Shown here: positions 41,723 through 60,125 of the stretch, piece after piece
Numbering within the stretch: position 1 is the first letter of the stretch
Layout of the letters: each line of letters begins with the position of its first letter
Translations under genes and position numbers: made by a program
Notes under the pieces: generated by a model
Told to the model about the DNA's origin: nothing
The model's database searches: none
What the model saw: only the letters and a program-made list of their open reading frames with translations
Assembly: GCF_040112705.1 (NCBI RefSeq)
Contig: NZ_CP157804.1
Coordinates: 3,032,001-3,096,000 of the forward strand
Length of the DNA: 64,000 nucleotides
Direction: 5' to 3'
Source of the DNA: Flagellimonas sp. MMG031
GTDB taxonomy: Bacteria; Bacteroidota; Bacteroidia; Flavobacteriales; Flavobacteriaceae

Positions 41723-42327
41723 CAGTAATTGGTTTCCCGGTTATTGATGATATCCTGCATACGCCGAAAGGAGATGATTTCCCGGTACCTTCGTGTCTTG
41801 ACCTCCAACTCGGCCACCATTTCCTGCGACTGCACTTTTTTTTCCATCAAAATGGCCGTGCGCTCCGCATCGGACATCTTCAAAAAATCACTGGACAAAA
41901 TCTGGTTTACAAAATCGAGATCATCAATGGCCGTATCCATGATCTGTTCAAAGGCTCTGGATACCTGTTCCACCTCCCCGGCTTTGATATAGGGGGAATT
42001 CAAAATATCCCTCAATTCATTTTGCACGGTATTGAAAAGGATTTCATTGTTCCGTGCGAGTTCCCGCACCGCCTTCAATTGTTTAATGGTATTGTTGACT
42101 TTGACAATATTGTCCTTCTGTTCCTTTAAAAACTCCACGGTCTTTAGCAGTTCAGAGGTCTGCTTTGCAGATTCCAACAGGGATTTGGTCATGCTGATAA
42201 AGTTCGTATTGTCATACACCGGCATTCCCTGGGCCGTAGCACGGCCGGGCAAGGAAATGGCCAAGATCAGAGCGAGTATCAAAGTCTTGGGATTCTTCCA
42301 AAGGGTTTGTTTTATTGTTACTCTCAT
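41722..42327 (-). CDS. traI: Conjugative transposon protein TraI (DUF4141/VirB5-like)
   Basis: 201 aa. Signal peptide (ALILAISLPGRATAQ), then coiled-coil-rich helices (LLKTVEFLKEQKDNIVKVNN; MEKKVQSQEMVAELEVKTRR). Fits the VirB5-like TraI of CTnDOT-type elements. Its start overlaps the TraG stop (ATGA), and its stop overlaps the TraJ start. Confidence 0.85.
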   Translation of the reverse strand: MRVTIKQTLWKNPKTLILALILAISLPGRATAQGMPVYDNTNFISMTKSLLESAKQTSELLKTVEFLKEQKDNIVKVNNTIKQLKAVRELARNNEILFNTVQNELRDILNSPYIKAGEVEQVSRAFEQIMDTAIDDLDFVNQILSSDFLKMSDAERTAILMEKKVQSQEMVAELEVKTRRYREIISFRRMQDIINNRETNY

Positions 42328-44741
42328 ATCATTTTCTTTTGTTGATTTATAAATTCAGTAATGGCCCGTTCCATATTCCCAAACTGTTCAAAGAGCTCCA
42401 TAAGCTGGCCATGTTCCACCCCATCGGTGAGATAGGCGGCATAGACCTCTGGGGGCACCTCCAAGCGAAAGACATTGCTTTCCTTCCCGATTTTGATAAA
42501 GATTTCGGTGTATTTGCGCACCCCGGTAAGGTTGTTTCTAAGGGACTTCAATTGATTGAGATCATGGTTGGAGAGGTGCAACCGTCTAACCAATTCATCA
42601 TAGCCCTTCTCGTTCCGTAAACTGTACACGACCTGCGTATTCTCCAGGATACTTGCCGAAGTGGCATTTTCCGGTAATTGGTTGATGGATTGCAGGATGA
42701 TACCAATGGCCCCGTTTTGCTTTCGGATGGCCTGGTAATAGAACTCCACACTCTCCAATACATGGGGAAATTTAAGCTGCTTGGCAAACTCATCGAAAAG
42801 AATAATGCCCCGTTCCGACCTGTTCCTCCAAATGGTGCGTTGGATGGCGGACTTGATCAATTTGAGCATTACGGACAGGATTTCCTTATTGTCTCGCACT
42901 TCGTCCAGTTCAAAGACAATCAGGCGCTTGTCCTCTATTTTATAGGTCTGGTCTTCTGCCACATGGAACAGAAAACTGTACAGTCCCCCATCCACATATT
43001 CGGAAAGAATGTGCAAAAATCCATAGACATTGAAATCGGATTCATGAACTCGGGTCTCCTCGATCAAGGTATCCTTGTGCTTATCAACAAACTGATATAG
43101 GGAAGCCAAGGAATGCCCCGCCCTGACAGCATCATAATAGTGCAACAACACTTTTTTCAAGGCCACTTCCTTGGATTTGGTCACCTGGTTTTCAGCCAAG
43201 AGCTCCAAAAGAAAGAGGGCCAGATCTTCCAGTCGTTCAGGGGTCAAATCGGACGGATCGGCGATATAAAAGGGATTAATACCCAAATTCTTGCCTTGCT
43301 CATAGCGAAGGACCACGTGATCATCGGGATACAATTGGGCAAATTTGGCATAAGAACCCCCTAAATCGATAATGACCAGTCGTACATCCGCCTCAAAGTA
43401 TTGACGTAGGATATTATTGGCCAAGAAGGATTTCCCTTCTCCTGTCGGGGCAAAAATGGCAAAGTTCCGGGCCTTGATACGCCTTTTCCCCTCGTCCCAT
43501 ACATCCTTGACCACAGGAATATTGTACTGTCTATCATTAAAAACGATTCCTGTTTCATCAGAGCGATAATTGGTATTGTTGATATACAGACAAAGGGCTG
43601 CCTTCAGGTCCATCACAAAAAGATCTTCATTGGAAAAGTTGGAAGCATAACTGGGATAGGAGTTCAAAAAATAATGTTTGCGCTCCTCCCCATGGGGATG
43701 ATAGGGTCGTATATCCAGTTCCTTCAATTGCGCCTTGATGCCAGAAGCAATTCGCTTCAACACCCCAACTTCCGTATGCCAATAAACAATATTCACATGG
43801 CCACGAATTATTCGTGCGGTATCATCCCCATTGATCCTGTCCAAGATATGTTGGACCTTGTTGCGGACCACTTTGTTCTGGGAACCAAAATTGGAGCTCT
43901 TGGAGAGTTCCTCAATTTTTTTATCCAATAGTTTACGCCATTGATGGGTATCATCTAGATATAGGATTTGGTTGATGATATGGTTCTCCCCCAATTCCAG
44001 TCCCAGACCGTCCAAAAAACCTTTATGAAAACTGAATCCGTCCGAACTGAATTTCCCGTTGGGCACACTGCTTTGCACGGTTTCTCCAAAACATTCTTCA
44101 TGGTTGATGGCCATCACATCAAAATAATGGTCACCAATTTCTATGGGGCCTTTCCCAAACTGGATATCCGTATCAAAATCAAGATTGTATCCATTGAAAT
44201 AAGCATGGGTATGCTCCAATATGGCTTCAGGTTCCATGGGTACCATGGACACGCTTTTGGAGTTGTTGATATAGGATACCGCATCGTTGACGGCGGTCAC
44301 AAATTCCGCTACCTGCACATCCAGTTTCCGGTGCAACCCTTTCTCTACTTTTCGAAAGGGATTGACATATTTGGTGGCATTAAGGGCTTTATCAAGAGGA
44401 AGTACAAAGAAGAGATAACTCTGATGGTCCAAATGCTCCCTACCCACAAAATAATCATGGGTGGCCTTGGCCAGAAAGGTTTCCTTTGGAAGGTTCCTAG
44501 CATCATAACCTTTCTTTTGATACCTATCCTGCTTATGGATAATAGCACCCACGGGCAAGGATTTAAAGGCCTGGAACCACATCCCGTGCAGCTCCTCAAA
44601 ATCCGTCTCAGAAAGGGAGTATATCTCAGGTAATTCCACTTGATAACACAACACCACATCGCCATTGCTCCCAAAAACCACATGGTTCTGGATATCCAGG
44701 ATTGGGTGATATGCATTGAAATTGAGCTTAGACATAGTCAA
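42324..44741 (-). CDS. traG: Conjugative transposon ATPase TraG (VirB4-like)
   Basis: 805 aa. Walker A FAPTGEGKSFLANN near residue 432, Walker B GIILFDEFAKQLK near 640, and the VirB4 motifs in between (VVLRYEQGKNLGINPF). It powers pilus/channel assembly from the cytosolic side of the inner membrane. Not to be confused with the coupling protein of the same letter in other nomenclatures; a VirD4-type coupling protein is not in this window and probably lies left of it. Overlaps TraF by 14 bp. Confidence 0.95.
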   Translation of the reverse strand: MTMSKLNFNAYHPILDIQNHVVFGSNGDVVLCYQVELPEIYSLSETDFEELHGMWFQAFKSLPVGAIIHKQDRYQKKGYDARNLPKETFLAKATHDYFVGREHLDHQSYLFFVLPLDKALNATKYVNPFRKVEKGLHRKLDVQVAEFVTAVNDAVSYINNSKSVSMVPMEPEAILEHTHAYFNGYNLDFDTDIQFGKGPIEIGDHYFDVMAINHEECFGETVQSSVPNGKFSSDGFSFHKGFLDGLGLELGENHIINQILYLDDTHQWRKLLDKKIEELSKSSNFGSQNKVVRNKVQHILDRINGDDTARIIRGHVNIVYWHTEVGVLKRIASGIKAQLKELDIRPYHPHGEERKHYFLNSYPSYASNFSNEDLFVMDLKAALCLYINNTNYRSDETGIVFNDRQYNIPVVKDVWDEGKRRIKARNFAIFAPTGEGKSFLANNILRQYFEADVRLVIIDLGGSYAKFAQLYPDDHVVLRYEQGKNLGINPFYIADPSDLTPERLEDLALFLLELLAENQVTKSKEVALKKVLLHYYDAVRAGHSLASLYQFVDKHKDTLIEETRVHESDFNVYGFLHILSEYVDGGLYSFLFHVAEDQTYKIEDKRLIVFELDEVRDNKEILSVMLKLIKSAIQRTIWRNRSERGIILFDEFAKQLKFPHVLESVEFYYQAIRKQNGAIGIILQSINQLPENATSASILENTQVVYSLRNEKGYDELVRRLHLSNHDLNQLKSLRNNLTGVRKYTEIFIKIGKESNVFRLEVPPEVYAAYLTDGVEHGQLMELFEQFGNMERAITEFINQQKKMI

Positions 44742-46785: not shown

Positions 46786-47064
46786 CTAGATACGGTTATG
46801 GACCTTGTTCTTTTCCAATACCTCCATGATCTCATGGTATTCGTAGTAGAGCACCCCTCCTATCTTGGTATAGGGCAGGGTCCCATTGATCCTTAGGTTT
46901 TGAAGGGTGCCCGGGGATATGCCCAAGAGGTCCCGCACCTCATTTGATTTGAGCCATTTTTTGTTGCGTTGTCCCTTTTCGTTCTGCAAAAGGTCCTTGA
47001 TGTCCTCCAACAGTTCTATCTTGAACTCCCTTAAATCTTCGGTGGTAATGATGGTCGCTCCCAT
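46786..47064 (-). CDS. Excisionase-type helix-turn-helix protein
   Basis: 92 aa. C-terminal MerR-like/HTH_17 domain with WLKSNEVRDLLGISPGTLQN and PYTKIGGVLYYEYHEIMEVL, preceded by a helical N-terminus. In related elements such proteins direct excision or repress integrase. It lies behind the palindrome region 47065-47348, where RteC or the protein itself may bind. Confidence 0.8.
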   Translation of the reverse strand: MGATIITTEDLREFKIELLEDIKDLLQNEKGQRNKKWLKSNEVRDLLGISPGTLQNLRINGTLPYTKIGGVLYYEYHEIMEVLEKNKVHNRI

Positions 47065-47348: not shown

Positions 47349-48188
47349 TCATTCATCCAGGGAATCCATCCGTTGGTTGAGCATCTCAATGAGCTTGTCC
47401 AAAAAGCGGGTCTTACTGGTCTTTCGGGACCGGATATCAATAAAAGTGTGGTAGTAATTACCGAGGTCCACATTGTAAAAATGTTCAAAATGCGAGGCCA
47501 ACTCCTTGATGTCCGTGGTACCGCTATTGATGCATTTGCTGGATTGGAGTGCATATAAAAGTTCGATCAAATCGGTCTTGTTTCCGGTCCAGAAGAGTTT
47601 TGAAGGTTTTTCCATGGTCATGTTCTTTTGGGGTTCTAAATTGTTTTGTAGGTCATCCACCTCCTTTCTCAGGTACACGATGAGCATGTCATAGGCCATA
47701 ATCGTGGCCACGGTACCATCCTGACAGGTGGAAAACTGGTCATCGATCAAAAAGTGGAAGGATTCAAGGGGAAGCCTTAGATCTCGGTTCCCCCTAACAA
47801 AATATTGTTCGTCCAGGGACATCGCCCCACGACGGTAATAATTATAAAACTCCAGATTATCGTTAAAAAAGGTCTGGAACTTGTCAATCTGAAGTTGTAG
47901 GTACTTGATCTGTGCCGTATCATTTCCCCTAGGCCGCTTGCTCTCGATATTGAACAATTTTACATAATAGATCAGCTTACTAAAAATTTGGGGTTTGACA
48001 TGCTTAAAGAAGTAGATTTCGTCTGCTTGGGTATCAAAGGTCTTGCCCGTAATCTGTTTTTGTAGTTTTCGGATGCTCTTCTCCACAAGTACGATTCCCT
48101 TTTCCGCTTTGAAAAGGATATCCCCGTTCCCGCTTTCCAACGAATCCAATTGGCCTTCAAATTCTGATAGCAGCTTTTGGTATTTCAT
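47349..48188 (-). CDS. RteC-family regulator of conjugative transfer
   Basis: 279 aa. All-helical, with LDSLESGNGDILFKAEKGIV at the start, RGAMSLDEQYFVRG near residue 130 and FWTGNKTDLIELLYALQSSK near 205, characteristic of RteC. In CTnDOT RteC activates excision genes by binding an inverted repeat upstream of them. The start lies 12 bp beyond the stop of the oxoamine-synthase gene (48201). Confidence 0.85.
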   Translation of the reverse strand: MKYQKLLSEFEGQLDSLESGNGDILFKAEKGIVLVEKSIRKLQKQITGKTFDTQADEIYFFKHVKPQIFSKLIYYVKLFNIESKRPRGNDTAQIKYLQLQIDKFQTFFNDNLEFYNYYRRGAMSLDEQYFVRGNRDLRLPLESFHFLIDDQFSTCQDGTVATIMAYDMLIVYLRKEVDDLQNNLEPQKNMTMEKPSKLFWTGNKTDLIELLYALQSSKCINSGTTDIKELASHFEHFYNVDLGNYYHTFIDIRSRKTSKTRFLDKLIEMLNQRMDSLDE

Positions 48189-48200
48189 GACGATTTTCCA

Positions 48201-50606
48201 TTAATGCTGGCCTTCCATGATTCCGAGCAATTCCAGGATGAAATTGTCATTGGTCTGGAGATAGGCATATTTTTTCTCTACCGTTGCACCGAGTTTCCGT
48301 TTCTCAAAGGCAGCGGTCAACCCAAAATCGATTTTGGGAATGCCCAATCCAATGGCCCGTTCAATGGTCCGGTAGAGCAACTGGCGATAAATGGCAAACT
48401 CTTCCAGACCGTCATAATCCATACCCACAAAGGCCGGCACATAGACTTGCTTCAAGTTGGTATAGCAGAACATTACACCCACTATCTTTTCAGGTTGGTA
48501 TAATGAACAAAGGACAATAAACTCCCACAAATGGTTTTCGTTCATCTTTTCAAACAGGGAGTCCGGAAAGGAAAAGGTATTGAGCCCCAAATTTCTGGAC
48601 TGTACTTCCCCGAACAAGGATTTGACCTGTTCAATTTGATTTGTTGACATGGATGGGAGAACAACTGTCTTTGCCCTATCGAGATAGGGTTGGACATCCT
48701 TTCGAAAATGTCTTCTGTTTCTGGAGGACAATCTTTGCAAATAATCTTCCATGGAATCCACCTCGTCCAGGACAACATAACAGGAGTTGGGCATTTGCAC
48801 CCTTAAAAATCCCTGCCCGTAAAGCGGTTCGTTCCATGAAGTATCTTCACCAAAGTCACGTAACACGGTCATTTTGGCTCCAAACTGCTGTTCCAGTTTT
48901 TCCATGGTTGCCAATAGCTTGTCCCTGGCCTCCTTGCCCAACCTATGTGATGCATTCCAATACAGGTGATCACCTTCAGTGAACAGACAACCGAGGGACA
49001 GGACCATGGATGACAAATGGTAGGGATTTGTTTTCCTTTCCTCCTCAATGGCAGCAGAAATTTGTGCTTGTGCCAACATATCATCCTTCCAAAGGGAAAG
49101 CGTCACAAAGGTCATCAATACTGGTACCCCATCAGCATCCTTGATGACCACATATCGAAACAACCAATTATGTTCCTTTCTTGGGTTACCCTGGAATACC
49201 TCTTCCGAAAACTTCAGCCCCTCCCAATCGTAAACCCCCTGCCCACCTAAACTTTGGTTCCATTCTTCCTTTTCAACTTGATCAATGGTATCGAATACTT
49301 CAACGGTAAGTTCAGAGGATACTTTCGGTCCACTTAGGGTCCTTGGTTCCATTTTAAAGGCGTGGAATACCCTTTGGGCATCTGTCTGGGTATCTTCCAA
49401 TGCCTTTGGAAAATGATATTCCATGGCGTCCACCAATGCTTTGATTTCCTCTTTTTGGTTATGCCTTGAAATCGTAATCCTTACACCTGTATTCTTTACA
49501 GGTACTGCTGGAAAGATACCGAGATTGACAAAGAAGCCCTCCCCCATCAAACGGTTCACAAAATTGTACCCGGTCTTGGGCATACCGGTCCCGATATAGA
49601 ACACCGGTGATTCATTTCTATCGATCAAGGGAAGTTCCGTTATCAAAAGGCAATCATTGAAATAATCGATACGTTCCCTCAATTCTTGTTGAAGCACATA
49701 AATCTCCGGGGATAGATGGATTTGTGCCGAGGCCATGGCAGCAGCTACCGAGGCTGGTTCCAATTGGGCAGAAAAGGTCAACGGTCCACCAAAGGTCTTG
49801 ATCTTATCATATAGTTGTGGGTTGGAACAGGCCAATACTGCACCACTGGCCCCAAAAGTCTTGCTCAGGGTACCGAAGAGCAATACATTTTCGGGCAATT
49901 CCCCCAATTGGTCCAACACATATCCGGTACCATTCCTTCCCACCCAACTCATGCCATGAACATCATCGAAATAAAAATGCAATTGGGAATATTTCTTTGC
50001 CAACCCCATCAGTTCCTTAACCGGGGCATAATCCCCGTACATGGAATAAATGCCATCGGCCATATACCAAATCCTGCCTTTGGAATGTTGGTACTTTTTA
50101 ATCTTGTCCTCCAACATTTCCAAATGGTTATGCCGGATCATTTCGATGGGAACACTCCGGGTTTTTAGCATTTTGGCCGCATTCTGTACACTCCAATGGA
50201 CCTGGTGGTCCAGAATGATTACGTCGTCATCATCCACGGCACTTGGAATGACACCTAAGTGCCCAAGGGTACTGTTTTTGGTAATGACAATGGGATAGCC
50301 ATACATTTCGGAAATCGAGTTTTCCAATTCCTCATATAACGGATTGGAGATATAGGATTTGGATAAGGGAAATTGCGTCCCATAGCTATCAATGGCCTCC
50401 TTGGCGGCCTTTTTCAATCTGGAATCCTGTTCCAGCCCTAAATAACCCGTGGTCCCAAAATGGTACAGTTCCCTACCCCCGACTTCTATCGTCCTTCCTG
50501 AAAAAGACTTTCCTTCGGCATAAAGGTGCAATACCCCAGCTTGTTTTGCATCGGTGAATACTTCATGTACAGTGTTCAAAAAATTGTGGTGTTTGATCTT
50601 GGCCAT
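48201..50606 (-). CDS. Alpha-oxoamine synthase fused to a C-terminal GNAT domain
   Basis: 801 aa from ATG 50606; an upstream in-frame start (50666) adds a hydrophobic 20-mer and is less likely. Residues about 1-395 are a class II PLP-dependent alpha-oxoamine synthase like 8-amino-7-oxononanoate synthase or serine palmitoyltransferase: YHFGTTGYLGLEQDSRL, YFDDVHGMSWVGRNG, and the PLP Lys in FGTLSKTFGASGAV near residue 246. After about 430 comes a GNAT/BioF2-like acetyltransferase region with YLQRLSSRNRRHFRKDVQP. A fusion of the two suggests an aminoketone or N-acylated product made from an amino acid and acyl-CoA, for example a lipid or signal. Divergent from DUF7793. Confidence 0.88.
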   Translation of the reverse strand: MAKIKHHNFLNTVHEVFTDAKQAGVLHLYAEGKSFSGRTIEVGGRELYHFGTTGYLGLEQDSRLKKAAKEAIDSYGTQFPLSKSYISNPLYEELENSISEMYGYPIVITKNSTLGHLGVIPSAVDDDDVIILDHQVHWSVQNAAKMLKTRSVPIEMIRHNHLEMLEDKIKKYQHSKGRIWYMADGIYSMYGDYAPVKELMGLAKKYSQLHFYFDDVHGMSWVGRNGTGYVLDQLGELPENVLLFGTLSKTFGASGAVLACSNPQLYDKIKTFGGPLTFSAQLEPASVAAAMASAQIHLSPEIYVLQQELRERIDYFNDCLLITELPLIDRNESPVFYIGTGMPKTGYNFVNRLMGEGFFVNLGIFPAVPVKNTGVRITISRHNQKEEIKALVDAMEYHFPKALEDTQTDAQRVFHAFKMEPRTLSGPKVSSELTVEVFDTIDQVEKEEWNQSLGGQGVYDWEGLKFSEEVFQGNPRKEHNWLFRYVVIKDADGVPVLMTFVTLSLWKDDMLAQAQISAAIEEERKTNPYHLSSMVLSLGCLFTEGDHLYWNASHRLGKEARDKLLATMEKLEQQFGAKMTVLRDFGEDTSWNEPLYGQGFLRVQMPNSCYVVLDEVDSMEDYLQRLSSRNRRHFRKDVQPYLDRAKTVVLPSMSTNQIEQVKSLFGEVQSRNLGLNTFSFPDSLFEKMNENHLWEFIVLCSLYQPEKIVGVMFCYTNLKQVYVPAFVGMDYDGLEEFAIYRQLLYRTIERAIGLGIPKIDFGLTAAFEKRKLGATVEKKYAYLQTNDNFILELLGIMEGQH

Positions 50607-50680
50607 TTTATTTGATTTTATTTGTGATAAAAAGAAACGTATTTTGTAAGTTGATAAAGCATACATATTCCAATTAATCC

Positions 50681-50713
50681 TTTTCAGATAACAAATACTC
50701 CTTTTCAGATAAC
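50681..50713. promoter_or_regulatory. Tandem TTTTCAGATAAC repeats in the oxoamine-synthase/DUF7793 divergent promoter
   Basis: TTTTCAGATAAC at 50681-50692 and again at 50702-50713, a 21-bp period, 75 bp upstream of the minus-strand start at 50606 and 92 bp upstream of the plus-strand start at 50805. Adjacent AAATACTCC also recurs at 52164-52195. Fits AraC-type direct-repeat binding, probably by the PAS-AraC regulator two genes away. Confidence 0.65.
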
Positions 50714-50804
50714 TTAAACCCTTTTATTAAGCTAAATAGCCCTCCTGTATAAAAATCAATTGCAGTAATTTTGTAAATTGATTGCGCTAACCAGTTTTCC
50801 GGAG

Positions 50805-51191
50805 ATGAAAAAAACACATGAAAACCGCTATGCCATATATCTGTTGACCGATGACCTATTACATATTATTTACAAGAAAGTGCCTTGTATCAATCGTAAG
50901 GCGGCACAACTCATAGTCAAGGATCGTATGGAATTACAAGAAGGTAAAGCGATGCCGGTGCTATGCGATATACGGGAGGTCAGGAATATCGATAAGGCCG
51001 CAAGGGACTATTTGGCTTTGGAAGGTTCCCTTTGGATCGAGAAACTGGCCTTTTTGATCGATCCGCCAGTTACGGATATGATAAGCTCCATTTATCTGGA
51101 CACCCATTCCCAGAAGGTTCCTACACAATCCTTTACCAAAAAAGCGGAGGCACTGGCCTATTTGGACATTAGGGAAACCGATGATAACTAA
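50805..51191 (+). CDS. DUF7793-type (STAS/SpoIIAA-like) protein
   Basis: 128 aa from ATG 50805 (a TTG at 50778 also lies in frame). LIVKDRMELQEGKAMPVLCD and RDYLALEGSLWIEKLAFLID are the recognisable DUF7793 signature; alternating strands and helices fit a SpoIIAA/STAS-like fold. Function unknown; placed before the PAS-AraC regulator it may be a regulatory partner. Confidence 0.78.
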   Translation: MKKTHENRYAIYLLTDDLLHIIYKKVPCINRKAAQLIVKDRMELQEGKAMPVLCDIREVRNIDKAARDYLALEGSLWIEKLAFLIDPPVTDMISSIYLDTHSQKVPTQSFTKKAEALAYLDIRETDDN

Positions 51192-51209
51192 CCAATTTAA
51201 TGAAAGCAT

Positions 51210-52136
51210 ATGCCGAACAGCGATGACTTTAGGGTAAAACGGATACAAAAGATGCTCTTGGAAATGGCCAAGGGCAATTTCTTCTATAGCATTGAACCCA
51301 TGGACAAGAATGACAATATTGCTTCTTTGGTGGTCATGCTGAACATGGTCAATGAGGAAATAGGGGCGGCCTTTATCCATCAAGGTTTTGCAAACGCTCA
51401 CAACACCCCACAATGTGTCGTCCAACTGTCCATGATCTTAGATGGGAATGGTCACATCGAATTGCTCACCAACGGCACATGCTCCCTATTGTCCAATCCT
51501 CCTAAGAATCTAATCGGAAAACATATCACTGAATTCATGACCGAAAGGTCCCGGGGAAGGTGGACCAAGAAAATGGCAAAACATTTGAAACGGGAGCGGT
51601 CTGAAACGGTATTGTTCCTAGAATTCATTACCAACGATGGTCTTTTGCTGGCCAAGGATTGTCAAATATCGGTATATCAGGCCTTGGATGGGAGCGGTCA
51701 AAAAACCCTGTTGAACTCCGTCTTCTTTTCCAAGGGGGAACCTTTTGAAACGGGGCTGCCCAAAAATAAACTCAAAGTAACCAAGGGCATCAAGGAGCAT
51801 AAGGTCACGTTGACGCCAGAGGACATCCAAATCATCAGGGACGTTCATGATATGATCATCAACAATCTGGACAAAGACCTTCCCACCTTGCAGGATCTTG
51901 CCCGTCAGAAGGGTACCAACGAGTACAAACTGAAATATGGCTTCAAACAAATCTATGGTACGACCATTTTTAGATTTCTGATCAGGGAACGTCTTCGAAT
52001 GGCAAGGACCCTGATCCAGCACAGCTCTTTAACGATAAAGCAAATCATCCAAATGACCGGCTTTAAGAGCAAGACCCATTTTTCAAGGGCATTCAAGGAC
52101 AAATATGGAATGTCCCCTACGGATTTAAGGTTGTAA
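51210..52136 (+). CDS. PAS-domain AraC-family transcriptional regulator
   Basis: 308 aa. Residues about 20-165 resemble a PAS sensor (SMILDGNGHIELLTNGTCSL, GRWTKKMAKHLKR), 205-308 an AraC DNA-binding domain with two helix-turn-helix units (DLARQKGTNEYKLKYGFKQI and IIQMTGFKSKTHFSRAFKDK). Cytosolic. 18 bp after DUF7793 in the same operon. The 21-bp tandem repeats at 50681-50713 and 52164-52195 are its probable operators. Ligand unknown. Confidence 0.88.
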   Translation: MPNSDDFRVKRIQKMLLEMAKGNFFYSIEPMDKNDNIASLVVMLNMVNEEIGAAFIHQGFANAHNTPQCVVQLSMILDGNGHIELLTNGTCSLLSNPPKNLIGKHITEFMTERSRGRWTKKMAKHLKRERSETVLFLEFITNDGLLLAKDCQISVYQALDGSGQKTLLNSVFFSKGEPFETGLPKNKLKVTKGIKEHKVTLTPEDIQIIRDVHDMIINNLDKDLPTLQDLARQKGTNEYKLKYGFKQIYGTTIFRFLIRERLRMARTLIQHSSLTIKQIIQMTGFKSKTHFSRAFKDKYGMSPTDLRL

Positions 52137-52163
52137 AATCCTTAAAATCATATATTTACTCCG

Positions 52164-52195
52164 TTTCAGATAACAAATACTCCCTTAGAGATACA
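52164..52195. promoter_or_regulatory. Tandem TTTCAGATAAC repeats upstream of the MauE-like gene
   Basis: A 20-bp segment starting TTTCAGATAAC at 52164-52183 is identical to the repeat in the 50.7-kb promoter, followed at a 21-bp period by a degenerate copy (TTAGAGATAC, 52185-52194). It lies 38-69 bp before the start at 52233. Confidence 0.65.
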
Positions 52196-52232
52196 TCAGA
52201 CTACCGAACTTTGTCATATCAAATCAAAGGAT

Positions 52233-52685
52233 ATGTCACACAAAGGAATCTACTCCAAACTTATTACCCTGTTCAGCCTTTTGCTGACCATTCTATTCAT
52301 GTATACAGCGGTAAGTAAACTGAACCATTTGGATCTCTTTCAATGGCGCCTGGAACGGATGCCTTATATTTCATCCTATGCCTCTTTGATCTCATGGGCC
52401 GTGCCCTTTTTGGAGCTGGTGATCGCAGGCCTATTGTGGTTTCCTAAATACCGAACCATGTCACTTTATGCCAGCTTAATCTTATTGGGCTCATTCACCA
52501 CCTATATCATTGTAGTGTTAAAGTACAGTGAGTCCATCCCCTGTTCCTGTGGCGGGGTCATTTCAGCCTTGAGGTGGAAGGACCATGTAATATTGAATAT
52601 CTCCTTTATGGTGCTTTCCCTATTGGGAATCCTTTGGTCAAAGAAACAAAACAACATCCAAATAAATCAAAATACTGTGCAGTAG
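52233..52685 (+). CDS. MauE/DoxX-like redox-associated membrane protein
   Basis: 150 aa, four helices (for example LITLFSLLLTILFMYTAVSK; WAVPFLELVIAGLLWF). The loop SIPCSCGG has a C-x-C-G. MauE-type proteins support disulfide formation in exported partner proteins. Here the partner could be the DUF6520 peptide encoded 52 bp downstream, which has two cysteines. Confidence 0.8.
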   Translation: MSHKGIYSKLITLFSLLLTILFMYTAVSKLNHLDLFQWRLERMPYISSYASLISWAVPFLELVIAGLLWFPKYRTMSLYASLILLGSFTTYIIVVLKYSESIPCSCGGVISALRWKDHVILNISFMVLSLLGILWSKKQNNIQINQNTVQ

Positions 52686-52737
52686 GGGAAGCCGAAAACC
52701 TAGAAAAGAGTAGGCATTAACTTTTATACTAAGTATT

Positions 52738-52974
52738 ATGAAATCTAATTTTTTAAAACTTGTTTTACCGGCCTTCGCCATTCTGTTGGCGGTTGGCCTA
52801 GCCTTTGCCACAGAGGAAAGCAATCTTCCTTATGTGGGCTATATCGCAACCCAATCCGGGTATGCTGAAATTCAAACAGATTGTCCCAATCTTAGTGGGG
52901 GGTACTGTTATGATGGACTTAATCAGGTGTTCAATGACAGTGGGTTGACAGACCCTAAGCGTACATGGGATTAA
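52738..52974 (+). CDS. DUF6520-type secreted small peptide
   Basis: 78 aa. Signal peptide (LVLPAFAILLAVGLAFA, cleavage near TEESN), leaving about 52 residues with two Cys (QTDCPNLSGGYCYDG). I recognise the family as DUF6520 of Flavobacteriia by its N-terminal signature. Predicted periplasmic or secreted, with one disulfide. Terminator directly downstream. Function unknown. Confidence 0.75.
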   Translation: MKSNFLKLVLPAFAILLAVGLAFATEESNLPYVGYIATQSGYAEIQTDCPNLSGGYCYDGLNQVFNDSGLTDPKRTWD

Positions 52975-52996
52975 ACACCATAATACGTTTGTCAAG

Positions 52997-53030
52997 ATGA
53001 GGCTGTCCTTTTGGACAGCCTCATTATTTT
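52997..53030 (+). terminator. Terminator after the DUF6520 gene
   Basis: ATGAGGCTGTCC (52997-53008), TTTT loop, GGACAGCCTCAT (53013-53024), then TATTTT. A perfect 12-bp stem, 23 bp beyond the stop. Clear intrinsic terminator for the plus-strand unit. Confidence 0.93.
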
Positions 53031-53190
53031 ATGAAAAGCCATTCCAAAATCAACTAATTGCACTGCCCGATGCAACACCACATGTCGACACAAATGATCT
53101 TCTGTACTATAGGCCTGGCCACAAATCATTATTTCAAAGTGGCGCCAAAAAGCTTGGTTGACCCGTTAAGGTTGCCATATCCTTCCTGAT

Positions 53191-53225
53191 AAAAAAAGCC
53201 GCCCAGAAATTGCTTTCCAGACGAC
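53191..53225 (-). terminator. Terminator after the metalloprotease gene
   Basis: On the minus strand GTCGTCTGGAAA-GCAA-TTTCTGGGCGGC forms a 12-bp stem with four G-U pairs and a GNRA tetraloop, followed by TTTTTTT (53197-53191). It is 47 bp beyond the stop at 53272. Together with the plus-strand terminator at 52997 it closes two converging transcripts; the stretch between them (53031-53190) shows nothing else. Confidence 0.8.
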
Positions 53226-53271
53226 TTGATCACTAATTCAAAAAAAATGATCTACTATAAAAAAAGAAAGG

Positions 53272-55578
53272 TCATTTTGGTTCCACTTGAAGTACCTTCT
53301 CCAGCTTGGCAAGGCATAGGGCCCAATGACCTTTCTGTTCCAGATGCCTTTCCTGCCGCAACTTTTCATCCATCTGTTTTTTTAATTGTATGAGTTGTCC
53401 CATCATCATGCCTTTGGCATAATCGGTTTGCGCAAATACCTCAAGATTGCGTTTCACATCTGTACTTTCTTCCAAAACAATCTTTACCAACCAATCGATA
53501 TAGGCTGCCTGCAACCCTTGTTTTCTGGGTTCCACAAACCCACCCTTCCCATTCAATTCACTAAAAAGTCCCCTTTGCAGTTGTACAAAATAGGCATTCA
53601 TAACCCCTTCGAAGCCTTGGATGGTCTCCATATATTGCAAACGTTTCATGAGTTTCGGTTTCAACATCTCCTGTACCAATAACTGTTGGTATGTAAATAA
53701 CTCGTCGGGAAAAGTCGTAAACCGTGAATAGGTACTGAACGTTGGTCGGGCCAACCACTCTGGGGGAGCAACAACCTGATCGACCAAAAAATCCATGGCC
53801 TCCCGCTGGGTTTCCAAGGGAATGGGATCATACATTTTTCCGGGTTGATCCATCGATTTATAGAATACCTCATATCCACCTACAAGTGAAAAGACATGCC
53901 TCATGGTGAAATACCAAAGTTCAATGGCCTCCCTATGGATACGTTCCATACGTGCATTGTCCTTTTGGCCCTGGTTCAGTTTAGGCAAGAGCGCCATGGC
54001 CCGCTCCAGATTTTTCATGGCCAATTTGGCTCCTTTGACAGGATCATCCGTTTCGACGACTTCATCCGTTGCGGTCGGACCGATGAATTCACCCTGATCG
54101 TTCGTATAGCGATACCAAGGAATGGTATCCTGCAATCTGATGAAGCGTTCCAGACTATCGTTCTTTTTTTCAGCCGACCAACCCTCAGGAAACTCCTGAT
54201 ACCCCCATCGGATATAGTATTTATCAGTGGGGCCCACTTTTTGCATTAAAAGGGAAGGGGGAATGCTATCTTCGGGCTGTGCCATATTGTTATGGCGCGT
54301 ATAATTCATGATACTCGGGGTATGGCCCATTGTCCGAAGCCATTGTGCATCACCCATTTTATCAACGGGGTACCGATATTCCCCATAGCTATTGTCAGTA
54401 ATCCCAAAAGCATGACCTGTTTCATGGGCCACCAAGGATTGTATCAATTCCCCCATGAGTTCATCGGGAAAGGGATAGGTTTGGGCACGCTCATCCAAGG
54501 CCGAGCATCGGATAAAGTATGCATCCATCAGATGTTCATAGGAAGAACCCAACAGAATATCGGATTTTATGATCTCTCCCGACCTTTGGTCCACCACCAA
54601 GGTCACGGTCGAACCGCTTCTTTTTTCCCCGAACTCCCTGATATTCCCATTCCTGAACCATCGAACTACTGAAGTTCCCAGACAATGGCTCGACCACTCA
54701 TCCAAGGAATCGACCTCATGCACAACGATGGCATCTTTAAAACCTGCCGACTCGAATGCGGGCAGCCATTCCAAGATACCGGCTTTGACATAAGGCCTCC
54801 ATTGCTTCGGGATGTCAGGGGACATGATAAAGGTGATGGGGCGGATGGGAACACTGGTCTGCCTATCCTTATATTTTTTTTCCAAACGCCAACGGACAAT
54901 GCTTCCCATATCATTTTTGGTACGATCGCGGTGGTTGGGCATACCCTCGATCAAAAAACTCATTCGATAATCAAACCGTCTGGGATCCATGGGACTTGAC
55001 AGCTTCATAAGGCTATAATAAACCGGCTGTATGATTTTGACGTTTTTCTTTTGTTGGCCCAGGTGTACCTTGACCACTACCTCATCCCCCATCACCTTGG
55101 TGCCGACAACTCCGGTCAATTTTGGTACATTGGGTGCATTGGATAGCGTTTCCCATCCCAGGGATCCATCAAATAGGATATCGGTGATATTGATACGGAA
55201 CCTAGCTTCGTTTTCTTCCATGATATCAAAAACACCCAATATGTTCGATTCCACATCCGGATCATTTCCCACAGGCAACCAAATACCTGTCTCGGACCAA
55301 ATCCTAGGTTCCTCCAAATAAATCTGGTTGCCATATTTCCTGAACACCACCTGTTTGGTTTCATATCTATGTAATCGACCGATCCTGGTAAGAAGCATGG
55401 GTTGCCCCATGTAGGATTTGGAGAGGTCCATAAAAAGCTGACCTTCCACTAGGGATGGGTTCAAAAAAGTCTGTGTTGTTGATGGGACTTCCCTAAACTC
55501 GGTCCCTCCAATCGGATTTTGGGCCATTCCAAAAAAGGGAACAGTCAAGAACAGCCCCATCCATAAAAAATATTTCAT
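53272..55578 (-). CDS. Secreted zinc-dependent metalloprotease (DUF5117/DUF4953-type)
   Basis: 768 aa from ATG 55578; a longer frame (55665) precedes the signal peptide. Signal peptide MKYFLWMGLFLTVPFFGMAQ. Catalytic zincin motif VAHETGHAFGI (HExxH, about residue 384), downstream SIMNYTR with the Met-turn. Domain order matches Bacteroidota DUF5117 plus DUF4953 proteases. Predicted periplasmic or outer-membrane associated peptidase that acts on peptides imported by the SusC/SusD pair encoded upstream. Substrate unknown. Confidence 0.85.
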   Translation of the reverse strand: MKYFLWMGLFLTVPFFGMAQNPIGGTEFREVPSTTQTFLNPSLVEGQLFMDLSKSYMGQPMLLTRIGRLHRYETKQVVFRKYGNQIYLEEPRIWSETGIWLPVGNDPDVESNILGVFDIMEENEARFRINITDILFDGSLGWETLSNAPNVPKLTGVVGTKVMGDEVVVKVHLGQQKKNVKIIQPVYYSLMKLSSPMDPRRFDYRMSFLIEGMPNHRDRTKNDMGSIVRWRLEKKYKDRQTSVPIRPITFIMSPDIPKQWRPYVKAGILEWLPAFESAGFKDAIVVHEVDSLDEWSSHCLGTSVVRWFRNGNIREFGEKRSGSTVTLVVDQRSGEIIKSDILLGSSYEHLMDAYFIRCSALDERAQTYPFPDELMGELIQSLVAHETGHAFGITDNSYGEYRYPVDKMGDAQWLRTMGHTPSIMNYTRHNNMAQPEDSIPPSLLMQKVGPTDKYYIRWGYQEFPEGWSAEKKNDSLERFIRLQDTIPWYRYTNDQGEFIGPTATDEVVETDDPVKGAKLAMKNLERAMALLPKLNQGQKDNARMERIHREAIELWYFTMRHVFSLVGGYEVFYKSMDQPGKMYDPIPLETQREAMDFLVDQVVAPPEWLARPTFSTYSRFTTFPDELFTYQQLLVQEMLKPKLMKRLQYMETIQGFEGVMNAYFVQLQRGLFSELNGKGGFVEPRKQGLQAAYIDWLVKIVLEESTDVKRNLEVFAQTDYAKGMMMGQLIQLKKQMDEKLRQERHLEQKGHWALCLAKLEKVLQVEPK

Positions 55579-55661
55579 TGTTTTTCGGTTTTTAAGGACA
55601 GGCACTCCCCTACCACAGTACTGAACATTTCCAGACTTGTTTCCAGAGAGTGCCCATCCGA

Positions 55662-57071
55662 TCAATATCCTTGGTTCTGTGGCAATAGATTGGGATTGGC
55701 CTCCAATTCGATCTCAGGTATCGGAAAAAGTACATCTGAATCCTCCCAATCCGGTTTGAACATTCCCAAAATCGCTGTGGCCCTACCCGTTCGCCTAAGA
55801 TCGAACCAACGATGTCCCTGTTCGGTGAACAATTCCACCCTCCGTTCGGCAAGAATAGCTTCCAAAAGTTCACTTTCCGAATTGGCCGTGGTATTGGCAA
55901 GCCCTGCCCTATTTCGAATCATATTAAGGTCTTCACGGGCACCGATCAAATTTCCTAGACGTGTCCTTGCTTCTGATCGGATCAGATATTGTTCCGCCAA
56001 TCTAAAATGGATGGAATATTCAAGGGACTCGGTAACATCAAACCGTGCCTTGTACTTGTATGGATAATACAGCGTGATGGTCTGCTCTTCATTGGAGATG
56101 CTATCGATCCATGCCGACCTTCGACCATCACCATCCTCAAAAGCGGAAAGGAGCCCATCGGTCAAGGCAAAAGACTGGCCAGGTACAAATGGGATGATCA
56201 ATTGGCTGGCCTCTTGGGTATTCCCAGGAAATTCACCATGCTGCAATTGCCAAATCGTTTCCATTGATTCCTTTAGGAACACCGTTCCCAGTTCATCCTC
56301 CAAACCAAAGTTGCCAATGACATCGGTTGCCTCGGCCTCGGCCAAGTCCCATTGGTCCGTATAGAGGTATACCCTTGCCAACAAAGCCTTGGCCACATTT
56401 CGGTCCGGAACCAACCGTTCTTCATTGTCGATGGTACTGCTTTCCATAAGTCCCACAGCCCGCACCAGATCCGAAATGATCCTTTCATAAACCAAGTCCT
56501 CGGACATCCGTGAGACTTGATTGTTAAAGGCATAGTCTGTGGTTGTGATATAGGGAACATCCCCAAAAACGGATACCAAAAGACTGTGCATGAAGGCGCG
56601 GACAAAAAGTGCCTGTCCCATAAACCTGTCTTGCTCACTCTCTTCCAAATCGGTGGCCCCTTCAATCCCTTCGACAATGGCATTGGCCCCGTAAATGACC
56701 TTATAGGCTTCACTCCACCAAGTCAAAACCTCGGTATTGGGTGGCAGCACCCGGTTCTGGTAGAATTCCAACAATTGGGGATTGAAGCCATAGTAGTCCA
56801 GTTCATCACTGTATATGGCCAATCTAGTGGTAAACCCATAGTTGCCGGAGACCATTCCAGATTCCCGCATGGTAAAATACAGGTCGGCCATGGCGGATTC
56901 CACCGTAGATGGATCATTGAACACGGTCTCGGAGACCATGATGTTCTTTGGAGGGTCGACTTCCACAAATGCCGTACAGCCCATAATTCCTATTAAGGGT
57001 ATTATCGATAGACACCTTTTCCCATACAAGGAGTTCCATTTCATTATTAAATACTTCGTTATTGTTTTCAT
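55662..57071 (-). CDS. RagB/SusD-family nutrient-binding lipoprotein
   Basis: 469 aa. Signal with LIGIMGCTAFVEVDP giving a lipidated Cys, then TPR-like helices (DPSTVESAMADLYFTMRES) and RNRAGLANTTA near the C-terminal third, as in SusD. Holds ligand at the cell surface for its TonB-dependent partner SusC, whose gene starts 19 bp upstream. Ligand unknown, but the protease neighbour hints at peptides. Confidence 0.93.
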   Translation of the reverse strand: MKTITKYLIMKWNSLYGKRCLSIIPLIGIMGCTAFVEVDPPKNIMVSETVFNDPSTVESAMADLYFTMRESGMVSGNYGFTTRLAIYSDELDYYGFNPQLLEFYQNRVLPPNTEVLTWWSEAYKVIYGANAIVEGIEGATDLEESEQDRFMGQALFVRAFMHSLLVSVFGDVPYITTTDYAFNNQVSRMSEDLVYERIISDLVRAVGLMESSTIDNEERLVPDRNVAKALLARVYLYTDQWDLAEAEATDVIGNFGLEDELGTVFLKESMETIWQLQHGEFPGNTQEASQLIIPFVPGQSFALTDGLLSAFEDGDGRRSAWIDSISNEEQTITLYYPYKYKARFDVTESLEYSIHFRLAEQYLIRSEARTRLGNLIGAREDLNMIRNRAGLANTTANSESELLEAILAERRVELFTEQGHRWFDLRRTGRATAILGMFKPDWEDSDVLFPIPEIELEANPNLLPQNQGY

Positions 57072-57089
57072 GATACTTTTTTTAAATGG

Positions 57090-60000
57090 TTAGAACCCTA
57101 CTTTAAGTCCCAAGGTCAGTTGTCTCAGTGGGGGCAATCGGTTGTTGAGTGTCTGTTCCGGATCGGGCCCCTTGTATTTGGTAAAGGTCAAGAGGTTCTG
57201 CCCTTGCAGGTATACATTGACATCCAGACCATTTTCTAGATGGGGCACTCTATAGTTCAAGGAAATATTGCGTACCCTGATAAAAGAGGCATCCGACACG
57301 GCGGAACTGCTCCTTCGCTGAAGGTCTCCATTGTTGGAGCCGGCTATCAATCCGGACGAGGCGACTTGATAGTTGTTCATGTCACCCGGTTCCCGCCATC
57401 TATCATGGTAGAGTTCGACACCGGCATTTCTCCTAAACCCGGGAACCGCGTTGTCCCGGAGGGTATTATAACCCTTTTGCTTTTTGAACTGTAGGAAAAC
57501 ATCAAAGGTCATGTTGCCCCAGTTGAGGGTATTCCCGAGACCCCCATAAAACTTGGGTGCCAGGTCCTCAATCCATTCAAGGTCCCCACTGCTACTGATG
57601 TTCCCGTCCCCGTTATAGTCCTCGATCACGTATTGTCCAGTGTCGGGATCGACCCCAAGGGATCTGTACAGCTTTACGATGGATAAAGGTTCACCTATGA
57701 CATAGCGATTGGCAAAAGTGGAAGTTTCCAGACCATCATAGCGCACAAGTTCACTCTTGGGAACCGATATATTAAAAGTCGTGGACCATTTAAAGGTTTC
57801 CGTACTTAGATTGGCGGAACGAAAATCCAACTCAATACCGGAGTTCTCCACCGTGGCATCGAAATTACCGGTAAGCTCGGAAAAGCCGGTCGTGGCCGCC
57901 AAGGGCACCCCCACCAGTTGATTGGAGGAACGGTTCCTGTACCAAGATGCATTTACAAATACACGGTCCCTAAAGAACCCAAGTTCAAGCCCTGCCTCCA
58001 GTTTTTTGTTGACCTCCCATCCGAACAAGGGATTAAAAATGCCCGAAGGACTCAGAATGGCGACCCCGTCATAATCGGAACCTGTGACAGTATAGGTATC
58101 CAAGAACTGGTAATCCCCGATATTATCGCTCCCTGTGGTACCATAACTGCCTCGGAGTTTTCCAAAACTCAGTACGGAACTATCAGAAAGGAGTGCCTCT
58201 TCGGAAAAGATCCATGCCAATCCAACAGCACCGAAATTCCCGAACTGTTTGCCCGGACCAAAGCGGGAAGACCCATCCCTCCTTCCCGTCAGGTTTAGGA
58301 TATACCTGTCCAAAAGCTTAAGGTTGACCCTCCCGAACACCGCATTATATTTATAATCGCTGTCGACACTGTTTCGGACCTCCACACGATCGGCAGCTGT
58401 CAGGTTAAAGATCAGGGAATTGTTGGGAAAGCCCGTACCCCGCATCACCAGTTGCTCGGTGGTTTCCTGTTGGAAAGTGGTCCCCAAGAGTACATCCATG
58501 GAAAGCTTTTTCCAAACCTTTTTCCATTGTAACTGGGGTTCAATGATCCAAGAATTCCGCTTGGAACTATTTGTGGTCAGGCTGGAATAACTTTGCGGGG
58601 TAAAGTTGAACCTTGGGTTTCTTGCCGAACTCGGCAGGGTCCGGTACGAATCCAAACTATAATCCGTATAGCCCATGCTCGCCCTTACTTCCAAATCCTT
58701 CACAAGCTCATACGAGATCAGGGCATTTGCCATAACAGTTCTGGTCTTGACCCCAAATTTCTCTTCAAGGGCTGCCAAGGGGTTGTCCCATGTATTGTTT
58801 TCCCAATTGAGATTACCATCCCCGTCAAATAGTGCAGGTGCATTCGGCGCCAATGTATATGCTTGAAAGCTTAGGTCCGACCGTGGCAATAGATTATCCT
58901 CCCGGCTATAGCTGGTGGACAGGTTCAACCTGAACCGGTCATTGTCCGATCGGTGGTTGATATTGCTATGCACATTGGCCCTTTTATAATTGGCATCCCC
59001 GGGAAAGACTGTCGTTTCCTTCAAAAAGGCGCCACTGACCAAAAACTGGGTACGTTCACTTCCCCCGGAAACCGAAAGTTGGGCATTGTTCCGATACACC
59101 GTTCCCCCTATAAGTTCCCTTTGCCAATCGGTATATCTATTTTGGTCCCATAGGGTAATATCGGGCCAATAAAAGTCATAGGCTGGCACGCCAAAAAAAT
59201 CATCAAGGCCATCATTGCTGACCCCTTCCCTTCTCACCTCCAGATATTGCTGGGTGTCCATCAGGTCCATAAAATGGGAAACCTGGCCAAGGGAAGTACT
59301 CAGGTGGGCATCGAACCGTGTTTTACCTGCCCTCCCCTTTTTAGTGGTGATCAGCACCACACCATTGGCCCCTCTTGAACCATATATGGCAGTGGCATCG
59401 GCATCCTTAAGTACTTCGATGCTCTCAATGTCATTGGGATTGATGGCATTCAAGGGGCTGATATCGCTGTTCACGATATCCCTGGATATATCTTCGGAAC
59501 CCAGGGATTGGGATCCGTAGGGCACCCCATCCACAATGTATAAAGGATCGGTCACCCCGTTGATAAAGTTTTGTCCGCGCACCTCGATGGAAAAACCACC
59601 TCCCGGAACCCCTGTGGACTGGACAATGTTCACTCCGGATAGATGTCCCTGCATGGCCGCCAAGGGATTAGCCACGGGTTGTTTTTCCATCACATCGGCC
59701 TTGATGGTGGCGATGTTTCCCGTACGTTCACGCTCAGACACGGAGTAATAACCCGCATTGAGCACGACTTCCCCCAATTGGGTGACATCTTCCTCCATTT
59801 GGACATTGATGGTATTTCTTCCATCGATAGGGACGTTCAAAGATTTATAGCCGACCATGGAAAAGACCAGTATGTCATTGGTTCCTGATTGAATGGTATA
59901 GGTTCCATCCATATCGGATATGGTACCGATATTCTTGGACTCCACCACAATATTCACCCCGGCAAGGGGTTCTCCCGTGCTATTGGTCACGGTGCCGGAA

Positions 60001-60125
60001 ATGATGGACTGTGGTGGCTCCAAGATTTTGCCCGCTTGTATTTGTTGGGTTAGTAGGGGGGATATTAGGATATATAAGAGCAGGAACAGGTTTTTCCAGC
60101 CTAGGCGTTTTGGTGATTTCTTCAT
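57090..60125 (-). CDS. SusC/RagA-family TonB-dependent receptor
   Basis: 1011 aa. Signal peptide (FLLLYILISPLLTQQIQA), carboxypeptidase-like domain (VTNSTGEPLAGVNIVVESKN, about 44-63), plug with the DADATAIYGSRGANGVVLIT TonB-plug motif (about residues 246-265) and a C-terminal 22-strand barrel ending QLTLGLKVGF. Imports large ligands driven by TonB. First gene of a three-gene operon with SusD and a metalloprotease. The 60126-60900 gap should hold its promoter. Confidence 0.95.
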   Translation of the reverse strand: MKKSPKRLGWKNLFLLLYILISPLLTQQIQAGKILEPPQSIISGTVTNSTGEPLAGVNIVVESKNIGTISDMDGTYTIQSGTNDILVFSMVGYKSLNVPIDGRNTINVQMEEDVTQLGEVVLNAGYYSVSERERTGNIATIKADVMEKQPVANPLAAMQGHLSGVNIVQSTGVPGGGFSIEVRGQNFINGVTDPLYIVDGVPYGSQSLGSEDISRDIVNSDISPLNAINPNDIESIEVLKDADATAIYGSRGANGVVLITTKKGRAGKTRFDAHLSTSLGQVSHFMDLMDTQQYLEVRREGVSNDGLDDFFGVPAYDFYWPDITLWDQNRYTDWQRELIGGTVYRNNAQLSVSGGSERTQFLVSGAFLKETTVFPGDANYKRANVHSNINHRSDNDRFRLNLSTSYSREDNLLPRSDLSFQAYTLAPNAPALFDGDGNLNWENNTWDNPLAALEEKFGVKTRTVMANALISYELVKDLEVRASMGYTDYSLDSYRTLPSSARNPRFNFTPQSYSSLTTNSSKRNSWIIEPQLQWKKVWKKLSMDVLLGTTFQQETTEQLVMRGTGFPNNSLIFNLTAADRVEVRNSVDSDYKYNAVFGRVNLKLLDRYILNLTGRRDGSSRFGPGKQFGNFGAVGLAWIFSEEALLSDSSVLSFGKLRGSYGTTGSDNIGDYQFLDTYTVTGSDYDGVAILSPSGIFNPLFGWEVNKKLEAGLELGFFRDRVFVNASWYRNRSSNQLVGVPLAATTGFSELTGNFDATVENSGIELDFRSANLSTETFKWSTTFNISVPKSELVRYDGLETSTFANRYVIGEPLSIVKLYRSLGVDPDTGQYVIEDYNGDGNISSSGDLEWIEDLAPKFYGGLGNTLNWGNMTFDVFLQFKKQKGYNTLRDNAVPGFRRNAGVELYHDRWREPGDMNNYQVASSGLIAGSNNGDLQRRSSSAVSDASFIRVRNISLNYRVPHLENGLDVNVYLQGQNLLTFTKYKGPDPEQTLNNRLPPLRQLTLGLKVGF

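Follow-up and report, generated by a model that had tools for sequence, protein, structure and literature searches.

A conserved gene module beside rteC in Flavobacteriaceae, with a possible role in transfer control and recognition by conjugative elements

Introduction

In the established biology of CTnDOT, RteC brings about excision of the element. To our knowledge, little is known of when the conjugative elements of Bacteroidota transfer, and to whom, beyond the tetracycline-induced CTnDOT. Here we describe a set of genes beside rteC in a 64,000-nucleotide stretch of the Flagellimonas sp. MMG031 genome (the window; positions 3,032,001-3,096,000 of a one-contig, 3.76-Mb genome). The set combines an alpha-oxoamine synthase (AOS)-GNAT fusion, a DUF7793 protein, a PAS-AraC regulator, a MauE-type membrane protein, a secreted DUF6520 peptide, and an adjoining SusC-SusD-peptidase block. 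Our preferred but tentative reading, which we hold to be short of evenly likely, is that it serves transfer control and recognition in the RteC-type conjugative elements of Flavobacteriaceae.

The locus differs from CTnDOT-like elements in having the PAS-AraC/DUF7793 pair and a secreted peptide beside RteC, and neither RteA nor RteB was recognized among the genes examined there. Common to it and to RteC-regulated elements with a type IV secretion system (T4SS-B) are RteC, a tyrosine integrase, TraG, and TraM; such elements include CTnDOT-like ones and ICEEa1 of Elizabethkingia, which is described with RteC and T4SS-B (PMC5458099). We found no description of the gene set among the listed matches in Creative Commons-licensed PubMed Central (PMC) papers, nor in the excerpts of PMC5458099 and PMC10434189. 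The same literature yielded nothing on DUF6520, NVEALA, or a fused oxoamine synthase/N-acyltransferase in Bacteroidota.

Three other kinds of system invite comparison. In the control of conjugation by peptide pheromones (pCF10, and Rap-Phr of the integrative and conjugative element ICEBs1), as here, a mobile element carries a small secreted peptide, a peptidase and an uptake route, and a regulator beside transfer genes. The proteins are unrelated, however, and the present system has a Gram-negative envelope, a cysteine-containing peptide, and a TonB-type channel, and its function is putative. Lasso-peptide clusters likewise bring together a peptide, a TonB-type channel, and an S9 peptidase, but lasso maturation genes were not recognized among the families tallied here, and the peptidase class varies. 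Finally, VqmA, including that of phage VP882, responds to 3,5-dimethylpyrazin-2-ol (DPO) and resembles the regulator described here in being a PAS-type protein found on a mobile element; VqmA is of the LuxR type, whereas the present regulator is of the AraC type.

Results

The module consists of SusC-SusD-peptidase genes, a DUF6520-MauE-PAS-AraC-DUF7793 series, and AOS-GNAT with RteC, and it stands next to the transfer region of a conjugative element of RteC type (Table 1). An earlier note on this DNA had proposed five genes, from AOS-GNAT to DUF6520, bounded by RteC and a strong terminator. All five reading frames were found, with domains recognized by Pfam; the PAS match is weak (PAS_9, 15.9 bits; cut-off, 27), and the DUF6520 match is clear (PF20130, 45.7 bits; cut-off, 25.4). 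The terminator is present as well. The proposed bounds proved too narrow: RteC, only 12 nt from AOS-GNAT, and the SusC-SusD-peptidase genes at 53272-60125 belong to the unit. The note had noticed neither these latter genes nor the conjugative context, the exchange block, and the leader RNA described below.

Table 1. Features of the module and its surroundings (positions in the window)
Feature	Position	Strand	Evidence or remark
RteC, conjugative-element regulator	47349..48188	-	PF09357, 6.8e-83; 12 nt behind AOS-GNAT
AOS-GNAT	48201..50606	-	First gene of the AOS-RteC unit; accessory; PF00155, 4.5e-23; PF13480, 22.7 bits
Promoter region P1, two 21-bp direct repeats	50678..50719	.	Between AOS-GNAT and DUF7793
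DUF7793 protein	50805..51191	+	PF25056, 9.7e-40
PAS-AraC regulator, proposed repeat-binding protein	51210..52136	+	HTH_18, 1.9e-19; PAS below cut-off
Promoter region P2, two 21-bp repeats	52160..52201	.	Upstream of MauE
Inverted repeat CATATC-N9-GATATG, ending on the MauE start codon	52215..52235	+	Stem count versus shuffles
MauE-type membrane protein, CSCGG motif	52233..52685	+	PF07291, 6.9e-31
Leader RNA, P0 hairpin and DUF805b pseudoknot, ahead of the peptide gene	52666..52717	+	RF02914, own model R1, covariation
DUF6520 secreted Cys peptide	52738..52974	+	PF20130, 8.7e-12; signal region constant, mature region variable from ~52820
Intrinsic terminator	52996..53025	+	-24.8 kcal/mol, z -8.3
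Exchange block: mature peptide, peptidase, SusD, SusC	52820..60038	.	Identity breakpoints, pairwise comparison
DUF4953 Met-zincin peptidase	53272..55581	-	PF16313, 1.7e-75; S9, M16, or S8 peptidase in other loci
SusD/RagB-type lipoprotein	55662..57071	-	Family search
SusC/RagA-type TonB-dependent channel	57090..60125	-	TIGR04056, 709.5 bits; cut-off, 368.25
HTH_17 protein, beyond RteC	46786..47064	-	PF12728, 5.7e-11
TraG ATPase of the transfer region	42324..44741	-	PF19044, 1.2e-62
Tyrosine integrase	1708-2943		PF00589

The conservation of gene neighbourhood that the earlier note had proposed as a check is extensive. A scan with AOS-GNAT, taking one genome per species, gave 77 loci (loci are cited by our L numbers). 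All five genes are present in 70 of these, 63 of the 70 also having RteC, and the complete loci span 13 genus names, several of which are synonyms of one group. Among the incomplete loci, L051 lacks MauE, the AOS of L071 is cut by a contig end, and L080 (Saprospiraceae) carries only a different AOS. The case that the earlier note had named as telling against a conserved system, the fusion without MauE and DUF6520, is rare: it is seen in L045 and L068 (Catalimonadaceae), which have AOS, AraC, and DUF7793, and in L005 and L078, both of which begin at a contig end. The AOS of L081, tallied as AOS-bearing, is a remnant.

Because this set had been selected by AOS, a second was anchored on DUF7793 in 199 Flavobacteriaceae genomes. 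It comprises 25 strong places, one being the window itself; the other 24 are 23 loci plus a second copy in the source genome (L084), and several overlap the first set in species. In these 24 we identified AraC (24/24), SusC (24/24), SusD (23/24), MauE (23/24), AOS (20/24), and RteC (20/24). AOS-GNAT is accessory to the module, since it is absent from four of these loci (L084, L132, L136, and L138), one of them the second copy in the source genome; all four retain RteC beside DUF7793. That second copy (L084:5021-15531; G000:C1:3258000-3275000) encodes a peptide with 33% mature identity to the one in the window, and its zincin is also different. Five weaker, distant DUF7793 homologues (L139-L143) lie outside any such module, some in tandem pairs.

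Across the phylum AOS-GNAT was matched at E 1e-80 in 9 of 395 genomes, eight of them of the same family (including the window's own), and the ninth matches the AOS part only; among 72,556 plasmid records there was no match at E 1e-60. The window's protein shares 99% identity with its counterparts in Allomuricauda sediminis and A. taeanensis.

The window carries the families of an RteC-type conjugative element (PF09357, PF19044, PF12508, and PF00589). Beyond AOS-GNAT come RteC, the HTH_17 gene, a pair of short conserved genes, and then transfer genes, TraG (PF19044) and TraM (PF12508) among them. One further protein has a weak TrbC match, below cut-off, and another has no match; we label these TraE-like and TraF-like on the assumption that gene order is a guide. 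With transfer genes on one side and the DUF4953 Met-zincin, SusD, and SusC on the other, past the terminator, the gene set thus sits between the transfer region and the SusCD-peptidase block. The gap between AOS and RteC is 50 nt or less in 50 of 65 loci, and at least one Tra family occurs in 39 of the 65 loci having at least 8.5 kb beyond AOS. We sought the ends of the element in 118 kb and found no convincing direct repeat and no tRNA. An exact 20-bp direct repeat at ~665 and ~73350 (the latter beyond the window) is unconvincing as an end; each copy adjoins one of two short genes that are alike by eye. A defence system was also considered and set aside: for eight proteins, the only PADLOC hit was a weak one to IetA (18.8 bits), from the protein encoded at 45586-46248.

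The tandem 21-bp repeats that the earlier note saw in two promoter regions are real and widespread. The pattern TCC-N18-TCC (period 21), picked after the sequences had been viewed, occurs in 53 of 73 P1 (AOS/DUF7793) and 45 of 66 P2 (AraC/MauE) intergenic regions, against shuffle expectations of 1.6 and 2.6, and eight other periods (17-20 and 22-25) gave counts of 0-8. By eye, the repeat sequence varies between clades and agrees between P1 and P2 within one locus; the mean best match between P1 and P2 is 14.5 within a locus, 13.3 across loci, and 12.6 for shuffled sequences. Of the two approaches, the fixed-period test is the sensitive one, and the general P1-to-P2 similarity score is weak. 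In two of the loci without AOS (L136 and L138), P1 carries clear period-21 repeats, and similar units are found in P2 of the same locus. The claim of a single regulon is thus well supported by the repeats in both promoters and by the joint occurrence of the five genes. A 21-bp direct repeat presumably fits an AraC-type site, and the PAS-AraC protein is the proposed binder.

Of 86 distinct sequences upstream of MauE, 61 place the start codon in an inverted repeat whose stem reaches at least 6 bp (6-9 bp), as against 589 of 4,300 shuffles (14%) and between 3/69 and 25/75 for other start sites. The arms covary in some loci (e.g., L084 and L056), which hints at RNA. Close relatives make up many of the sequences.

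With the boundary between signal and mature parts set at a fixed 26 residues, the mature parts of 97 DUF6520 peptides contain two cysteines (51 peptides), four (45), or five (one). Peptide maturation, the earlier note's alternative function, is supported only indirectly, by these counts, two or four in 96 of 97, and by the adjoining MauE gene. Clustering the 97 peptides at 70% identity gives 75 types, and of 17 pairs of copies within one genome, 16 have mature parts only 5-43% identical and one pair 73%. MauE is often fused to, or then followed by, a beta-propeller. In one such fusion (L033:6756-8297), an AlphaFold model (mean predicted local distance difference test score, 80.6) has about six blades by eye; no Pfam or NCBIfam family reaches its cut-off on the propeller part, and among the structures matched by Foldseek are DUF4221 and NHL propellers, at 7-12% identity.

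The peptidase slot is filled variously. In 78 loci it holds a zincin (37), an S9 peptidase (23), an M16 peptidase (10), or none of the three (8). In L032 the slot is taken by an S8 peptidase, in L071 by a thioredoxin-like protein. Seven of the 24 DUF7793-anchored loci fall outside the three main classes. The S9 peptidase of L059 (L059:3686-6370) matches a lasso-peptide (Atxe2-type) isopeptidase model at 105 bits (cut-off, 400).

It is well supported that the mature peptide, peptidase, SusD, and SusC vary together and independently of AOS and RteC, forming an exchange block. Proteins were compared pairwise in 34 zincin-type loci. AOS is at least 90% identical in 30 pairs; in 23 of these the mature peptide is below 50% and the peptidase below 60%, in six both are at least 80%, one is in between, and none is discordant. 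Mature-peptide identity tracks that of the peptidase (rho 0.58), SusD (0.41), and SusC (0.30), and does not track AOS (0.08), AraC (0.10), or RteC (0.06). Taking one locus per peptidase cluster (25 loci) changes little (peptidase 0.58, SusD 0.40, and SusC 0.32 versus AOS 0.02). In partial Mantel tests given AOS, the peptide is linked with peptidase (0.58), SusD (0.40), SusC (0.29), and MauE (0.28; each p 0.001), with AraC at 0.08 (p 0.040), DUF7793 at 0.03, and RteC at -0.01.

The borders of the block can be read from related elements. Against L006, L010, and L046, high identity stops at 52817-52821, approximately the junction of signal and mature peptide, and against L008 it stops at 52235, the MauE start. 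L007 and L009 share the window's block, matching at 95.7% up to 60038; the right border comes from these two only.

Directly ahead of the peptide gene we identified a structured leader RNA, a member of the Rfam family DUF805b (RF02914; 52682-52716, 46.7 bits; gathering threshold, 35.6). There are two such matches in the source genome, which has two DUF6520 genes, and each gene is immediately preceded by one of them. A first structure screen accepted 70 of 97 loci as against 73 of 970 shuffles. With a looser anchor and the window left out, the core was located in 86 of 96 loci (10 coreless ones were dropped), giving 78 distinct sequences, of which 48 were aligned. Three stems are supported in the alignment: P0, which is absent from the Rfam model, P1, and the pseudoknot stem P2. 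Pairs form in 88.1% of cells (shuffled mean, 76.3; 21-42% when the stems are slid), 81 cells are changed on both sides (shuffled mean, 28.0), and the covariation score is 0.376 (shuffled, 0.207); none of 500 shuffles reached these values. Two weaker measures of the five, which count the pairs and the pair types showing change, do not stand out, with 57 and 40 of 500 shuffles attaining them. Pair 38-65 is C-G in 32 sequences and U-A in 16, with no exception, and the outermost pair is unformed in 16 of 48 rows for stem P2 and in 16 of 46 for P0. With our own model (R1), 68 of 78 sources, the window included, gave a single match apiece; 33 of the 68 loci had been used in building it.

Two features set the RNA described here apart from the Rfam family: a hairpin conserved upstream, and support for a pseudoknot stem that is missing from the Rfam consensus line. 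It also precedes a DUF6520 peptide gene. DUF805b is not confined to DUF6520 genes: 115 of 199 Flavobacteriaceae genomes have it (86 over cut-off), in up to 27 copies, and DUF6520 is present in 28 of the 199. We inspected 31 DUF805b matches (L156-L186) and located the core in 26; judged by eye, many of these stand ahead of genes whose products begin in a signal-like way or are short peptides of Cys or GG type.

The accessory enzyme joins an AOS domain (residues ~1-420) to a FemAB/Acetyltransf_6-type GNAT region (~430-801), judged by eye to be a tandem GNAT from the strand order of the model; the PF13480 score barely exceeds its 22-bit cut-off. The first domain has the AOS fold (PF00155; template modelling score by target length, 0.82-0.88 in the best 40 matches). 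The nearest solved folds are Alb29, serine palmitoyltransferase (SPT), BioF, and ThaOS, with CqsA lower in the list, and the matches span residues 5-417. An alignment of 24 homologues shows no variation at K249, D214/D215, H217, or H137; we take these residues to serve in pyridoxal phosphate and substrate binding. AOS-GNAT reached no NCBIfam cut-off.

Discussion

The conclusion best supported by these observations is that one PAS-AraC regulon joins rteC to the making of a leader-RNA-controlled, probably disulfide-bonded secreted peptide whose type is swapped along with its peptidase and SusCD. The exchange suggests, without proving, a recognition or signalling system that governs the element's own transfer. 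The PAS-AraC protein, with the DUF7793 protein, would bind the 21-bp direct repeats in P1 and P2. P1 would drive RteC (together with AOS-GNAT where present), hence excision and transfer, and P2 would drive MauE and the secreted peptide, in which MauE may aid disulfide formation. The type-specific mature peptide could be handled by its cognate peptidase, perhaps also by the SusC/SusD channel beside it. By this route the cell would sense whether, or how many, neighbours hold the same element type, and the regulator would be adjusted. AOS-GNAT, as an accessory, would add a putative amide or aminoketone product. A recognition or crowding signal would explain the kept position, the variability, and the exchange. 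In its most specific form, the proposal is one of self/non-self communication: the hypervariable disulfide peptide, with its RNA-controlled leader and swapped with peptidase and SusCD behind a constant signal peptide, would let donors learn, ahead of the opening of transfer by RteC, whether their neighbours already have an element of that type. We regard this form as doubtful.

Several observations weigh against the preferred reading. In the fetched flanks, 26 of 65 loci have no Tra family, of the Tra families Pfam confirmed TraG and TraM only, and RteC is missing from four of the 24 DUF7793-anchored loci. The similarity of P1 to P2 exceeds all 40 shuffles in only 25 of 66 loci, the general tandem score in P1 does so in 27 of 75, and two loci without AOS (L084 and L132) have no clear tandem repeat in P1 (best 12 and 10 of 15). 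The 23 swapped pairs derive from eight loci only, and some SusC values rest on a wrong or partial SusC (e.g., L028, 25%). Once the peptidase is controlled, SusD (-0.10) and SusC (-0.07) add nothing to the link with the peptide, so the peptide-peptidase link is the only specific one. It is also the tightest, persisting at 0.45 when SusD is controlled, but it may be plain linkage because the two genes are neighbours. SusCD was accordingly dropped as the peptide's covarying partner, and a role for it as importer is not specifically supported.

The exchange block could instead be nutrient cargo: SusC, SusD, and the peptidase would form a RagAB-like system for oligopeptide acquisition, swapped as niche genes, with the peptide hitch-hiking and the regulator sensing nutrient. 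The match of SusC to RagA structures and the varying peptidase class are in keeping with such a role. Under it, however, one would not look for a mature peptide that changes with the peptidase while its own signal region does not, nor for a position kept between the transfer regulator and AraC, and we consider it a serious but doubtful contender. A second possibility is that the peptide is made as a periplasmic protein with disulfide bonds and inhibits or protects its cognate, the secreted peptidase encoded next to it. Their link is the tightest in the block and their genes adjoin convergently in the window, but one homologous peptide family would have to suit zincin, S9, M16, and S8 peptidases, and the link is confounded by adjacency. 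This we think unlikely.

Two further readings concern the enzyme and are compatible with transfer control; the likelihoods we attach to them overlap that of the preferred reading and are not meant to sum to one. The core idea of the earlier note was a regulon that makes and senses a small molecule. Here AOS-GNAT would make a small diffusible signal, which might be an aminoketone amide, possibly cyclising to a pyrazinone, and the PAS domain of the AraC protein would sense it as VqmA senses DPO. FemAB-type GNATs acylate amines, and the presumed active-site residues of the AOS are invariant. Moreover, DPO is made from aminoacetone and alanine (PMC12930378, excerpt), and a phage carries its own DPO receptor (PMC12802170, excerpt). 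Yet the PAS-AraC regulator is kept without AOS in 4 of 24 loci, its PAS match is under cut-off, and the enzyme falls well below the CqsA equivalog threshold (NF005526, 74 bits; cut-off, 428). A signal of this kind seems unlikely, and a CqsA-like synthase as the core of the module was rejected on the low score and the loci that dispense with the enzyme.

Alternatively, AOS-GNAT could be a one-chain synthase of sphingolipid type, in which formation of a 3-keto base by the AOS is followed by its N-acylation by the GNAT, as with Spt and bCerS together, so that the envelope would be changed for transfer. The nearest folds include SPT structures, and in Caulobacter the action of Spt followed by N-acylation in the cytoplasm has been proposed (PMC11087976, excerpt). 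Against this, the enzyme is far below the cut-offs of the SPT equivalogs (NF047599 and NF047600, 154 bits for both; cut-offs, 500 and 640), and the reading seems improbable to us. FemAB_like also has matches in a Caulobacter control genome and does not identify bCerS. Finally, the very high diversity of the peptide and the coexistence of different types in one genome might suggest a bacteriocin-like antagonist with type-specific uptake or immunity in the exchange block, but no toxin-like or immunity family was matched in the genes scanned and no immunity-like gene was recognized in the block, making this quite unlikely.

For the conjugative elements of Flavobacteriaceae, the module supplies a candidate regulator, candidate binding sites, and a candidate signal peptide. 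Natural pairs of elements that are nearly alike except for the exchange block make signalling and self-recognition directly testable. The module also provides a gene context for the orphan leader RNA DUF805b and for the DUF6520, DUF7793, and MauE-propeller proteins.

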